In this document: in pieces, positions 7,380 through 46,846 of the stretch
How positions within the stretch are numbered: the first letter of the stretch is position 1
Layout: each line of letters begins with the position of its first letter
NCBI GenBank assembly: GCA_040756055.1
Contig: JBFLZR010000001.1
Coordinates: 437,849 to 501,848, forward strand
Source of the DNA: Candidatus Zixiibacteriota bacterium
GTDB lineage: Bacteria > Zixibacteria > MSB-5A5 > GN15 > FEB-12
Direction: 5' to 3'
DNA length: 64,000 nucleotides
Position numbers and translations under genes: made by a program
The notes under the pieces: model-generated
Seen by the model: only the letters and a program-made list of their open reading frames with translations
The model's database searches: none
Told to the model about the DNA's origin: nothing

Positions 7380-9422
7380 ATGGCTGAGAGACAGAGAAAT
7401 AGACTAGCTGGCGAGAATTCGCCGTATTTGTTGTCGCATGCCGACAACCCGGTGGAATGGTATCCGTGGGGTGAACAGGCGCTTGAGAAAGCGAAAGCGG
7501 AGGACAAACCGATTTTCCTTTCTATCGGCTATGCTGCCTGTCACTGGTGTCATGTGATGGAGCGCGAGTCGTTCGAGAATGAAGATATCGCGCGATTTTT
7601 GAACGAACATTTTATCAGCATTAAGGTTGACCGCGAGCAGCGCCCGGACCTTGATCAGATTTACATGAATTTCACCACCGCTATGACAGGTCAGGGGGGC
7701 TGGCCGATGTCGGTTTTTCTCACGCCGGATTTGAAGCCGTTTTTCGCCGGGACCTATTTCCCTCCCGACGACCGGTATGGCAGGCCGGGCTTTAAGAAAG
7801 TGATAACCGAGATCGCCAAAGCATACAGCGAAGAGAAGGAGATGGTGGTATCGTCGGCGCAGGATATCTTTGAGCAGGTCGCAAGTCAGCTGGAGACGGG
7901 AGGGGCGCCGGGTATTTTCAGCAGGGAGATGCTCGCGCGGTCGGCGGAGGCTTTGATGAGGGGCTTTGATGAAACTCACGGCGGGTTCGGCCAGGCGCCG
8001 AAATTCCCGCACGCGCTGGAGCTTTCGTTTTTCCTTAGATATTACAAAATATCCGGTGATTTATCATATCTGAAGGCGGCGGAGAAATCGCTGCGCTGCA
8101 TGGCGAGAGGTGGTATCTATGATCAGCTGGGCGGAGGGTTCGCGCGGTATTCCACCGATCGAGAGTGGCTGGTGCCGCATTTTGAAAAGATGCTCTATGA
8201 CAACGCTCTTTTGGTACCCGTGTATGCGCAGGCGTTTCAAATTACGAAGGATGATTTCTACCGCAAAATCGTGCGAGGGACGCTTGATTTCATTCTCGGG
8301 GAGATGACTGATCAATCGGGCGGATTTTATTCGGCGCTCGATGCCGACAGCGAGGGGGAGGAAGGGAGGTTCTATGTGTGGACTCCCGCTGAGATTCGTG
8401 AGGTGCTTGCCGATGATGCTGATCTGTTTGAGCGTTACTACAATGTGTCGGCGAAGGGGAATTTCGAAGGGAAGAACATTCTCCATGTTACGCAGCAGGC
8501 GGAGCGAGTTCGGGATACTTATGGGGCGGACGATTTCAATGATTTCCTGAAGGCGGGCAGAGAGAAGCTTCTCGAAGCCAGAAACAAACGTCAGCGTCCG
8601 TTGACGGATGACAAGATACTTACGTCTTGGAACGGGCTGGCGCTGAGCGCGCTGTGCCGGGGGTATCAGGTTACGGGCGACAGGAAATATCTGGATGCCG
8701 CCATCAAGAACGCGGGGTTTGTCCGTGAAAAGCTGTATGTTGGCGATCGGTTGGCACATAGCTACCGCAAAGGTAAGCATTCTGCGGGAGAGTTTCTGGA
8801 GGATTACGCTTTTTATGTCGCGGGTCTTCTGGACCTGTTCGAGAGTGACGGTGGGGCCGGGAATCACAAATGGCTCGGGTTCGCGGTTGAGTTGACCGGG
8901 CGGGGGCTGGAGTTGTTTCTGGATGGGGCAGGACGATTTTACCTTCGCCCTGATAACGAAAGCGATTTGATAATCCGGCCTAAGGATGAGACCGACAGCG
9001 CTATTCCATCGCCGGGTTCAATCATGATATCCAATCTTCTCAGGCTGAATCGGCTCACCGCGGAGAGCGCTTATCTGGAAAGCGCAGAGAAGGCGCTGAG
9101 GGCGATATCGGGACTGGTGGCGAGGTATCCCGGCGGGATGACCTCGGCGCTGTTTGCGATCGATTATTATTTCAGTGACAAGGTCGAGATTGTTGTGATA
9201 GGCGCCGGTAAGGGGCGCGAGGAGATGCTCAGAGAAATATATCAGCGGTATCTCCCTAACAGGATAATCGCACTGGGCGATGGCTCCGGCGGTGGAGGGG
9301 CGTTGTTTGAGGGGCGAACGGCCGCAGATGGCGGGGTTGCCGCTTACGTTTGTGTTAATTCAGTGTGTCAACTTCCGGTGTCGACGGTGGTTGAACTGCG
9401 CGAGCAGTTGGATAGAATATAG
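7380..9422 (+). CDS. DUF255 thioredoxin-fold / glycosidase-like protein (YyaL, SPATA20 family)
   Basis: This 680-residue protein is a full-length member of the widespread YyaL/SPATA20 family. It has an N-terminal thioredoxin-like domain with the signature [19 protein letters not shown] and the CxxC motif [14 protein letters not shown] (C54, C57). A long alpha/alpha-barrel region follows that resembles six-hairpin glycosidases or cellobiose 2-epimerases ([41 protein letters not shown]). The family's biochemical role is unsettled; proposals include redox or thiol chemistry. It has no signal peptide and is probably cytosolic. It lies upstream of OsmC and DUF302 genes on the same strand, which makes a thiol/redox neighbourhood. 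Confidence 0.92.
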
Positions 9423-9516: not shown

Positions 9517-9936
9517 ATGATTACAGCGAAAATGAAGTGGGCAGGCGGTATGAAGTTCGAGGGGCTGTCCGCTTTTGGCCATAGGATTGTCACTGACGTC
9601 AGTAAAGAGGCGGGGGGCGAAGAAGCCGGTTATAGGCCGACCGAGCTTCTGCTATACGCTGTCGCAGGATGTACGGGAGTTGATGTTGTCAGGATACTCG
9701 AAAAGCAAAGACAGAAACTTCATTCGCTCGAGATAGAGGTAGTGGCGCATCATAATGAGGATTACCCGAGGCCATTTCACACGGTTGAGATCAAATATAT
9801 CGCGCGGGGGGAGAATCTGGACGAAAAGAAGCTTGCCCAGGCGATTGAGTTGTCGGAGTCCAAATACTGTGTGATCAGTCAAACGATAGAAAACGCCGGT
9901 AAGGTGACTACCAGTTATGAGATTATCCCGGAATAA
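9517..9936 (+). CDS. OsmC family protein
   Basis: The 139-residue protein fits the OsmC/Ohr fold, small homodimeric thiol peroxidases or related proteins that reduce organic hydroperoxides. Two conserved cysteines are present in the expected places: C52 in AVAGCTGVDVVRIL at the start of the central helix and C118 in SESKYCVISQTI. The motif RPTELLLYAVAGC is typical of the YhfA/OsmC-like branch rather than Ohr proper. The start is preceded by GAGGATGAGGAC. It is followed 58 nt later by the DUF302 gene and then by the TGA-interrupted small membrane gene. Both peroxide detoxification and sulfur trafficking are possible roles. Confidence 0.9.
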   Translation: MITAKMKWAGGMKFEGLSAFGHRIVTDVSKEAGGEEAGYRPTELLLYAVAGCTGVDVVRILEKQRQKLHSLEIEVVAHHNEDYPRPFHTVEIKYIARGENLDEKKLAQAIELSESKYCVISQTIENAGKVTTSYEIIPE

Positions 9937-9994: not shown

Positions 9995-10384
9995 ATGATG
10001 GATAGGCTGGCTTATCAGATGAAATCGGACAAGTCGTTCGACGCGGTCGTATCGAATCTGGAAAAACAAACATCTGAGCACAAATTTCGAGTATTGCATG
10101 TTCATGATGTTCAGGCTACTCTGGCGGAGAAGGGGCTGCGGCGGGGGCCGCTAAAGATAATCGAGGTTTGTAACGCCGGCTTCGCGCATGAGGCGCTGGG
10201 TAAGAATATCAATGTCGCCCTGTTTATGCCCTGCAAGTTCTCGGTGTATACTGAGGGTGACCAGACGGTGGTCACGCTGGCGCGACCATCGATGATTGCC
10301 GATATGATGCCGGGTACCGGGCTTGACGAGCTGGCTGGTAATGTCGAGGAAACTCTCAAGAAAGTCATGGCGGCATCGGTTTAG
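9995..10384 (+). CDS. DUF302 family protein
   Basis: The 129-residue product matches the DUF302 fold: an N-terminal SFDAVVSNLEKQTSEHKFRVLHVHDVQ segment split around a conserved strand-helix, then LKIIEVCNAGFAHEAL, then NVALFMPCKFSVYTEGDQTVV, ending with ARPSMIADM. The phrases IEVCNP/A and PCxxxVY are characteristic of the family. The cellular role is not established; members often sit near sulfur or redox genes. There is no signal peptide. A second ATG three bases downstream (9998) is an equally possible start. It ends six bases before the putative selenoprotein ORF, so these two are very likely co-translated from one transcript. Confidence 0.85.
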   Translation: MMDRLAYQMKSDKSFDAVVSNLEKQTSEHKFRVLHVHDVQATLAEKGLRRGPLKIIEVCNAGFAHEALGKNINVALFMPCKFSVYTEGDQTVVTLARPSMIADMMPGTGLDELAGNVEETLKKVMAASV

Positions 10385-10390
10385 GTCGAT

Positions 10391-10585
10391 ATGAAAAATG
10401 TAGGCAAGTATATTAACAAGCGGAGCATATTTTCCGGTATTGCCGGCGGTGTGGTCGGCTATATATTGTATTATACCTGCCTGGTGTTTGGAGGTACTTG
10501 ACCGATGACGGTGAATCCGTATCCCTGGATCGTGCTGGGGATTGTGACCGGTGCGGTCATGTCGGTTTCGGATATGAAAGTTTGA
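10391..10585 (+). CDS. Candidate selenocysteine-containing DUF6132-like two-helix membrane protein (in-frame TGA at codon 37)
   Basis: Codons 1-36 encode MKNVGKYINKRSIFSGIAGG and a first transmembrane helix. A TGA follows at 10499-10501. The same frame continues as PMTVNPYPW plus a second helix (IVLGIVTGAVMSVS) and stops at 10583. From memory, DUF6132 proteins are two-helix peptides with a GT-C-PITSNPY-type motif. Here the motif reads GGT-stop-PMTVNPY, so TGA replaces the cysteine. Codons after the TGA keep the G/C-rich third positions of neighbouring genes. A hairpin starts 19 nt after the TGA (8-bp stem 10521-10528 with 10535-10542, loop ATCGTG), consistent with a bacterial SECIS. Reading TGA as selenocysteine gives 64 residues. 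Alternatives are a nonsense mutation, or separate translation from the ATG at 10505, which has GGAGG 10 nt upstream. No sel genes lie in the window. Confidence 0.6.
10521..10542 (+). promoter_or_regulatory. Putative bacterial SECIS hairpin
   Basis: The stem is ATCCCTGG paired with CTGGGGAT (six Watson-Crick pairs, two G-U wobbles) and the loop is ATCGTG. It begins 19 nt after the in-frame TGA, so the apical loop lies about 27 nt from it. That is inside the spacing known for bacterial SECIS elements. If the closing G-C pair is left open, the loop begins with G, as SECIS loops require. The element lies inside the coding frame, as bacterial SECIS elements do. Confidence 0.45.
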
Positions 10586-10597
10586 TGGGATTGATTT

Positions 10598-10798
10598 ATG
10601 CCACTGTTCGAATACAAATGCAGTGATTGCGGTAGCAAATTCGAAGAACTGGTCAGCAGTGACACAAAAGTTGAGTGTCCGAAATGCGGTTCGGAGAACG
10701 TTACGAAGCTTCTGTCGACTTTTTCGGCATCGGGAGGCAGCTCGTCTTCATCGTCGCTTCCCTGCGGTCAGAAATCGTGCGGCAGCGGTTTTAGCTGA
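10598..10798 (+). CDS. FmdB family zinc-ribbon protein
   Basis: This 66-residue protein begins with the FmdB-type regulatory zinc ribbon PLFEYKCSDCGSKFEELV. Two CxxC knuckles, C8/C11 and C27/C30 (ECPKCGSENV), should bind one zinc ion. A serine/glycine-rich linker follows and ends in a cysteine-containing tail, LPCGQKSCGSGFS. The function of such small ribbons is largely unknown; some were named after the formamidase regulator FmdB. It starts 12 nt after the candidate selenoprotein frame and closes this redox cluster before a terminator. Confidence 0.88.
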   Translation: MPLFEYKCSDCGSKFEELVSSDTKVECPKCGSENVTKLLSTFSASGGSSSSSSLPCGQKSCGSGFS

Positions 10799-40397: not shown

Positions 40398-40649
40398 CTA
40401 CCGGCCAGGATTTGAATTATTATCGCCTATTGAACCGGGATTGGACTGTCGACGCAGCTTGGCTTTCATCTTTTTGAGCAGATTTCTGGCCCAGGCGAAC
40501 TCGGCAGACAGAATGGCGAGTCCTGCCGGAATTACGATAATAGCGGGCCCCGGCAGAACCAGCATCGCTATGCCGATGGCCAGAACCGTAAAGCCGATCA
40601 CGGCCACGATCAATCGCCTTAATTGTTTCAGTGTTTTTACGAGCATCAC
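40398..40649 (-). CDS. PGPGW-motif small membrane protein
   Basis: This 83-residue protein has two hydrophobic helices around LVLPGPAIIVIPAGLAILSAEF. The variant PGP motif and the following AEFAWARNLLKKMKAKL match the small PGPGW transmembrane family. Its function is unknown. A basic C-terminal tail follows. The start is GTG at 40649, with ATG three bases in, and AGAAGG lies upstream. It is encoded 48 nt downstream of TspO on the same strand, so the two may be co-transcribed. Confidence 0.8.
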   Translation of the reverse strand: MMLVKTLKQLRRLIVAVIGFTVLAIGIAMLVLPGPAIIVIPAGLAILSAEFAWARNLLKKMKAKLRRQSNPGSIGDNNSNPGR

Positions 40650-40697
40650 AGTTGTTGCCTTCTGATCAAGTGCGGCAAACGGGATAAGCCGCCCATG

Positions 40698-41186
40698 TCA
40701 CCCTCCGCTGTTCAACCGCCAGATAGAGAAGTTCAGAATAGCGGCGAATGATACCCACAGAAAATAGGGAACCAGCAGCGCGCCGGCCGGGATACTCTGA
40801 CGCCAAAACGCGATCCCGGTGGCCAGTATGAGGCACCAGAGTATGGTTATGTCGACGAAGGCCAGGTCCGGACGGTGTATGCCAAAGAACAGCCATGACC
40901 ATATACCATTAAACATGAGTTGAATGAAAAACAGAGTTAAAGCCACGGGTGCCGCCATGTACCCGCCCCGTTTCCAGACAAGCCACGCGGCTACGCCCAT
41001 ACTCAAGTACAAGAAAGACCAGACAGGCCCGAAAACATAGCCAGGAGGTGTCCAGGATGGCTTGCGCAACTGGCTGTACCACTCGCCGGGCATGAACTGT
41101 GAACCGACAAAAGCCGGAACGAAACTGATCGCAATCCAGGCCAAAAGAGAGATAATGCTGGCTGAGGTTTTCATACCCGGTGACAT
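40698..41186 (-). CDS. TspO/MBR family protein
   Basis: The 162-residue protein is a five-helix TspO (translocator, benzodiazepine-receptor) homologue. Signature segments are WYSQLRKPSWTPPGYVFGPVW, LYLSMGVAAWLVWKRGG, LFFIQLMFNGIWSWLFFG and PYFLWVSFAAILNFSIWRLN. Relatives bind porphyrins and cholesterol and are linked to tetrapyrrole breakdown and stress signalling. An internal ATG at 41174 is an alternative start. No tetrapyrrole genes lie nearby. Confidence 0.94.
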   Translation of the reverse strand: MSPGMKTSASIISLLAWIAISFVPAFVGSQFMPGEWYSQLRKPSWTPPGYVFGPVWSFLYLSMGVAAWLVWKRGGYMAAPVALTLFFIQLMFNGIWSWLFFGIHRPDLAFVDITILWCLILATGIAFWRQSIPAGALLVPYFLWVSFAAILNFSIWRLNSGG

Positions 41187-46042: not shown

Positions 46043-46846
46043 TTATTGCTCCGTGACCAGGAGCCGTTTGGCCGCCTCGAAACCGCAATGCTGATAACGG
46101 TCATATGCTCTGGCGGCCTCATCCCTGATTACCCTGCGGTCTTTGCCATCCGCCCATGCCACGATAGCGGCTTCGAGGGTGTAGGCTTCGGGGGCCATCA
46201 GGCCCGTTGTCCACAAAACAGGATCGGCCCTGAGTGCCCTGATGTGTCTGCCGAAAAACTGTTTGCTCACGCATGCGAGAATTATGACCTGCCGGCCGGT
46301 GCTGTCAGCGCTGAGGCTGTCTATGGGGAGGTTGAAATCCATTAGTCCATCATGCCCGACATAAGCAACCAGATCGGGGGGGTTGAAAGCGCCTGACTCT
46401 ACCAAAGAGGAATCTTCCGCCCGGGAGATGTCGGGTGTTTTTCGTCCGGCGACGCATGCGAAGAAATCGGATACGGCCTGTTTGATCCGTTCTCCTTTAT
46501 AGGCGTGGGCGATGACGCACAGCGGAAGTGTCGTGTGCCGGAAAACGCACTGCTCGAGCACGGTGTCCGGCCGCACGTGTTGCGCAACCGATACCATGCT
46601 CCATTGGGAACTGCGGTTGAAGAATGTTTTTAAGCCGTAGGCGGCCCCCCAGTAGAGATTGTTGTAGGGATCCTCTCCGTCCCCGAGTTTTGCCGGAACG
46701 GGGATAATGCCCTGGTGGTCGTTGTCGGCGAGCGCGACAAACACATGGACAGTCCGGCAGGTGTCGGCTCCCGATATGCGGGTTGTGACTATGACACACA
46801 ACGTCAAGCAAATGATTAGCGAACGGATCGGCATTTTGGCAACCAT
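46043..46846 (-). CDS. Exported protein with possible caspase-fold (clan CD) features
   Basis: I cannot assign this 267-residue protein with confidence. It has a signal peptide (RSLIICLTLCVIVTTRISGA) and a mature region with an alternating alpha/beta plan. A strand with H165 (LVAYVGHDGLMDF) is followed by a strand ending in C192 (RQVIILACVSKQFFGRH), then WTTGLMAPEAYTLEAAIVAW. The order His-then-Cys at strand ends resembles clan CD peptidases (caspase, gingipain, clostripain). The N-terminal VHVFVALADNDHQGIIPVP and LGDGEDPYNNLYWGAAYG look like conserved family stretches. It might instead be a binding protein of the same fold. It is monocistronic. Confidence 0.55.
   Translation of the reverse strand: MVAKMPIRSLIICLTLCVIVTTRISGADTCRTVHVFVALADNDHQGIIPVPAKLGDGEDPYNNLYWGAAYGLKTFFNRSSQWSMVSVAQHVRPDTVLEQCVFRHTTLPLCVIAHAYKGERIKQAVSDFFACVAGRKTPDISRAEDSSLVESGAFNPPDLVAYVGHDGLMDFNLPIDSLSADSTGRQVIILACVSKQFFGRHIRALRADPVLWTTGLMAPEAYTLEAAIVAWADGKDRRVIRDEAARAYDRYQHCGFEAAKRLLVTEQ

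Follow-up and report, generated by a model that had tools for sequence, protein, structure and literature searches.

A probable selenoprotein family of small two-helix membrane proteins in Zixiibacteriota and other phyla, in which selenocysteine takes the place of the DUF6132 cysteine

A catalogue published in 2026 recognizes 119 families of prokaryotic selenoproteins, among which are OsmC-like and FmdB-type proteins (PMC13188914). The published model of the bacterial SECIS element has a loop of 3–9 nt with a G in the first two loop positions, at a spacing of 16–37 nt (PMC13188914). The Pfam family DUF6132 (PF19628) has no function on record, and neither this family nor the motif of the proteins described here is present in the 119-family catalogue (PMC13188914), in line with the first-pass annotation, by which the family is not known from lists of bacterial selenoproteins. 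None of the new families of the 2025 deep-Sep paper fits, no selenoprotein model of NCBIfam 20.0 matches the family, and full-text searches of the open-access literature, both for DUF6132 or PF19628 and for Zixibacteria together with selenoprotein, returned nothing relevant. Our study concerns a short gene in the window, by which we mean the whole stretch of 64 000 nt of Candidatus Zixiibacteriota DNA that was analysed. Its product is read, with a probability of about 0.93 and on comparison of sequences, as a selenoprotein with selenocysteine (Sec) at the DUF6132 cysteine position. The family has in common with the catalogued prokaryotic selenoproteins the exchange of Sec with Cys, the SelB pathway, an RNA structure after the UGA and redox neighbours, but it differs from them in consisting of two membrane helices with no thioredoxin fold. 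We consider it a new family of bacterial selenoproteins, unusual as a minimal membrane hairpin and possibly also in how far its RNA element lies from the UGA.

The frame runs from the ATG at 10391 through a TGA at codon 37 to a final TGA at 10583–10585 and is otherwise open; both coordinates and translation agree with the earlier description of a frame broken solely by that TGA. With TGA read as U, the translation is MKNVGKYINKRSIFSGIAGGVVGYILYYTCLVFGGTUPMTVNPYPWIVLGIVTGAVMSVSDMKV, and coding sequence is kept on both sides of the in-frame TGA, as looked for in a selenoprotein gene. The features of the locus are as follows.

9517–9936, + strand: OsmC-family protein, with which the conserved operon opens (PF02566, 65.9 bits)
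9995–10384, + strand: DUF302 protein, 6 nt 5' of the selenoprotein gene (PF03625, 60.8 bits)
10391–10585, + strand: gene of the probable two-helix membrane selenoprotein, 64 residues, Sec as residue 37
10499–10501, + strand: in-frame TGA, read as selenocysteine (111 TGA, 17 TGC/TGT and 0 other among 128 homologues)
10521–10542, + strand: hairpin of the first-pass annotation, 8 bp with the 6-nt loop AUCGUG, -9.4 kcal/mol; present here, not conserved as such among relatives
10544–10560, + strand: conserved covarying hairpin GUGACCG-GUG-CGGUCAU, loop at 10551–10553, 49 nt after the TGA
10598–10798, + strand: FmdB-type zinc-ribbon protein, 12 nt 3' of the selenoprotein gene (PF09723, Zn_ribbon_8, 58 bits)

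Homologues were collected from 132 genomes of the class by a protein search followed by profile searches; the profile searches also covered the phylum to which a Syntrophaceae genome belongs (39/395 genomes) and Armatimonadota (63/291 genomes). The protein and profile searches were free of any codon restriction and carried no bias for TGA, because the queries had Cys at the Sec position. Among 128 non-redundant homologues the aligned codon was TGA in 111, TGC in 11 and TGT in 6, a count of aligned genes outside which stand many weaker profile matches with one TGA. The totals include 14 Sec loci that are known solely through a DNA pattern fixing the TGA and are uninformative on codon choice; without them there are about 97 TGA against 17 Cys, and the picture is unchanged. 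The U/C pairs proposed as a check by the first-pass annotation were therefore found, with no codon for a residue other than cysteine and neither TAA nor TAG. The TGA genes end in a mixture of stops (49 TAA, 38 TAG and 23 TGA), and an internal codon that is nevertheless always TGA is therefore not an ordinary stop. A pseudogene or a sequencing error could be suspected for a gene taken from a single MAG; however, the same TGA recurs, with the frame kept after it, across numerous independent assemblies (111 non-redundant genes), and this explanation was rejected as having a negligible probability.

Two further readings of the TGA bear on these counts. The first-pass annotation had put forward two coupled ORFs as a competing reading, in which a peptide of 36 residues would stop at the TGA and a second ordinary ORF would start from the ATG at 10505. 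The GGAGG at 10490–10494 does indeed lie 10 nt 5' of that ATG in the window. This arrangement fails in the relatives, however, as 22 of the 71 Sec members have no ATG, GTG or TTG within six codons after the TGA and just 4/71 have such a start together with a Shine–Dalgarno-like tetramer, while Cys homologues run as single ORFs over the site and neither TAA nor TAG ever occurs as the internal stop, which makes two separate peptides exceedingly improbable. Decoding of the TGA without SelB, by a code in which TGA stands for Trp or Cys, or by non-specific readthrough, has in its favour that a C follows the TGA in 44/71 Sec genes, a context that favours readthrough. Nonetheless, TGA terminates 23 of the same genes, the exchange partner is only ever Cys and never Trp, the Sec machinery is present, and an RNA structure follows the TGA in Sec and not in Cys members. 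Reassignment was rejected, and decoding without SelB as a whole is very improbable.

The distribution of the two forms was examined on a tree of 83 members, which is rough because it rests on few columns; the Sec/Cys label needs five changes on it, three of which are forced by well-supported branches. Cys and Sec have thus been switched at least three times. Within one taxonomic family (f5) Sec is found in L169 and L171 and Cys in L167 and L168, and within another (f15) Sec is found in L164 and Cys in L165. The family is present in at least three bacterial phyla. Some Cys members sit in genomes that also make Sec, an observation that counts against the selenoprotein explanation in making an advantage of Sec less evident.

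The search of the genome (3.3 Mb, 12 contigs) for selA, selB, selC and selD, suggested alongside the original claim, found all four. These are selA (524.8 bits) with selB adjoining it (333.5 bits), a tRNA-Sec gene (selC; anticodon UCA, 69.4 bits), and selD (384.7 bits; L082, G000:C2:620963-621886). The selD gene has one in-frame TGA of its own, and for this reason the selenophosphate synthetase is probably itself a selenoprotein here. A tRNA-Sec was found in 105/132 genomes of the class and in 13/14 genomes of other lineages. One weak match to the family profile (G057:C3:46567-46650) lies mostly within a tRNA-Sec gene (46591–46683) and is a false positive.

In the proposed mechanism SelB, bringing Sec-tRNA, would recode the TGA with the aid of a downstream hairpin, which in this lineage would be that at 10544–10560. 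In all RNA tests each gene was compared with its own copies in which synonymous codons had been redrawn. For the MFE of the first 72 nt, the mean z was -1.57 in Zixiibacteriota Sec genes (best 5 % in 26/57) and -1.85 in Sec genes of other phyla (best 5 % in 28/53), while the effect was slight in Cys genes (mean z -0.48; best 5 % in 4/17). RNAalifold on 31 Zixiibacteriota genes returned a single helix, window 10544–10560, with 95.9 % of cells paired and 23 double changes, compared with 6.6 in shuffles (0/500 as many), figures that come from rows selected by us and biased to intact helices. When all 57 Sec genes are included, the paired share of cells is 84.7 % (shuffles ≤80.5 %) and there are 35 double changes (shuffles ≤19). 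The distal helix, or a shifted form of it (GGGGC-GGUNNN-GUCCC), is found in 50/57 Zixiibacteriota Sec genes against 22.4±3.2 expected and is lacking in 7/57; in Cys genes it is found in 2/17, against 2.3 expected in shuffles. RNA structure beyond the synonymous-codon expectation is therefore present in Sec members and not in Cys members, and the hairpin at 10544–10560 is likely the SECIS element or its apical part. The hairpin to which the first-pass annotation had pointed, at 10521–10542, exists with the 8 bp and 6-nt loop described and belongs to the minimum-energy fold. It was rejected as the conserved element, however; RNA structure after the TGA is indeed kept in Sec members, but the hairpin that the Zixiibacteriota relatives conserve is the one at 10544–10560.

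Set against the bacterial SECIS consensus, the Zixiibacteriota loop in register A lies 49 nt from the UGA and in register B 53 nt, both beyond 16–37 nt. The window's own sequence, taken singly, also has a hairpin at 37 nt that fits the rules (-15.3 kcal/mol, p about 0.01 versus synonymous shuffles). By comparison, L137, L193, L197, L199 and their relatives have a textbook element, UCCCU-GGUC-AGGGA, with the loop 19–20 nt from the UGA, and Desulfobacterota and Armatimonadota have long stems in which UGCAACCC is paired with GGGUUGC. The idea that one SECIS consensus serves the entire family was rejected, as the structure differs lineage by lineage. Taken together, the Sec machinery, the restriction of the aligned codon to TGA or Cys and the RNA structure kept in Sec members support the selenoprotein reading with which the first-pass annotation began; each of its three routes to refutation was tried, and none overturned that reading.

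The description of the protein as DUF6132-type holds in part. The window protein gives no match to the Pfam model, scoring under the 23.2-bit cut-off, and because it falls below the model when taken alone we call it DUF6132-like. On the other hand, six Cys members pass the cut-off, the Sec member L143 passes it directly (27.5 bits, cut-off 23.2), and hhalign of the window protein and five near relatives against the six Pfam-passing Cys members gave a probability of 98.6 % with E 1e-15 over 58 columns, Sec standing opposite Cys. Judged by these alignments, the Sec and Cys forms are one family. Its likeness to DUF6132 consists of two glycine-rich helices around G-T-C-P-[IL]-T-x-N-P and of a gene neighbourhood, with FmdB downstream, that the Pfam-passing Cys members share; its difference is the presence of Sec instead of Cys in 111/128 collected members. 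An AlphaFold model of modest confidence (pLDDT 70, pTM 0.43) has helices at residues 7–32 and 43–63 with Sec in the loop. Searches of the PDB gave spurious weak matches only by sequence and no relative with E below 3 by fold. Sec would sit in the loop that joins the two glycine-rich helices of this small membrane protein.

The gene is the third of a tight cluster in the order OsmC, DUF302, selenoprotein gene and FmdB. The redox neighbours named by the first-pass annotation were borne out, with OsmC and DUF302 upstream and, further upstream, a larger protein with weak thioredoxin-like matches. This last is a 680-residue protein (window 7380–9422) that precedes OsmC; it has a stretch of 11 protein letters not shown here and its matches are to the thioredoxin fold, and related sequence occupies the same place in several relatives. 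OsmC and DUF302 lie upstream of the gene in most Zixiibacteriota loci, and FmdB follows on the same strand, ≤400 nt from the Sec/Cys codon, at 73 of the 81 loci whose available sequence sufficed. Thioredoxin is encoded on the same strand within 400 nt at 18/57 loci of other phyla, nearly always directly upstream at 15–85 nt. Thioredoxin reductase is downstream in L198 and L203 and OsmC is downstream in L117, L211 and L216, while in the Cys member L217 genes for thioredoxin and thioredoxin reductase both follow. Elsewhere in the window, another TGA-joined frame (40401–41186, minus strand) looks on inspection like two ordinary genes side by side, one TspO-like and one for a small membrane protein.

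A Cys is found four residues after Sec (UxxxC) in 89/111 Sec members; it is absent from the window's own clade, and three of the nearest relatives of the window protein have no Cys at all. Many Cys members (L032, L041, L046, L049, L052, L167 and L168) have a partner Cys about five residues before the active Cys, and the Sec members L169 and L171 have a Cys of this upstream type. In Zixiibacteriota, K/R residues number about 3.5 ahead of helix 1 and 0.2 within the loop; the corresponding counts elsewhere are 1.2 and 1.0. These positive charges suggest that the loop is outside in Zixiibacteriota but not in other phyla, and the topology may differ between phyla or be dual. The side of the loop is of relevance because a partner thioredoxin would be cytosolic.

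From the neighbour genes, the placement of Sec in the loop by AlphaFold and the pattern of Cys, we tentatively favour a thioredoxin-maintained selenol redox centre at the membrane, in defence against peroxide or reactive sulfur, at somewhat less than even odds. In most members the selenol would work with the Cys four residues on, whereas the window's clade, lacking that Cys, would need either a partner protein or a small thiol, or else a second copy, and the selenol would act at the membrane together with OsmC against peroxide or reactive sulfur. The same selenoprotein could have a different job, not as a thioredoxin-linked reductant but with a Sec that carries sulfane sulfur or selenide, or passes it on, across the membrane or along it. 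This role is suggested by a rhodanese adjoining L121, divergent and with a YgaP-like membrane domain, and by the surroundings of L117 and L210, where a CsoR/FrmR-type repressor (PF02583), thioredoxin and OsmC are encoded, and the three near relatives without any Cys would suit a single-residue carrier. However, neighbouring thioredoxin and thioredoxin reductase genes are far commoner than rhodanese in other phyla, and vicinal Cys occur in most members (the +4 position in 89/111 Sec members). We regard a carrier role as the main rival, somewhat less likely than the thioredoxin-linked one.

In summary, our study proposes a family, spread over at least three phyla, in which Sec would be active in a thioredoxin-coupled minimal membrane hairpin and in which the Zixiibacteriota SECIS loop would lie 49–53 nt after the UGA, beyond the accepted range; this combined picture is offered as a possibility that we would rate a little short of evens. 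Because the TGA splits a gene of 50–70 codons, the gene would be missed by gene finders, and a probable selenoprotein family across several phyla has been hidden from annotation. The selenoproteome would thereby gain a membrane protein without a thioredoxin fold, and the naturally varied RNA elements, one of them apparently distal, offer material for testing the rules of SelB recoding. For the unstudied Pfam family DUF6132, the finding provides a candidate active residue together with candidate partners in thioredoxin and OsmC.
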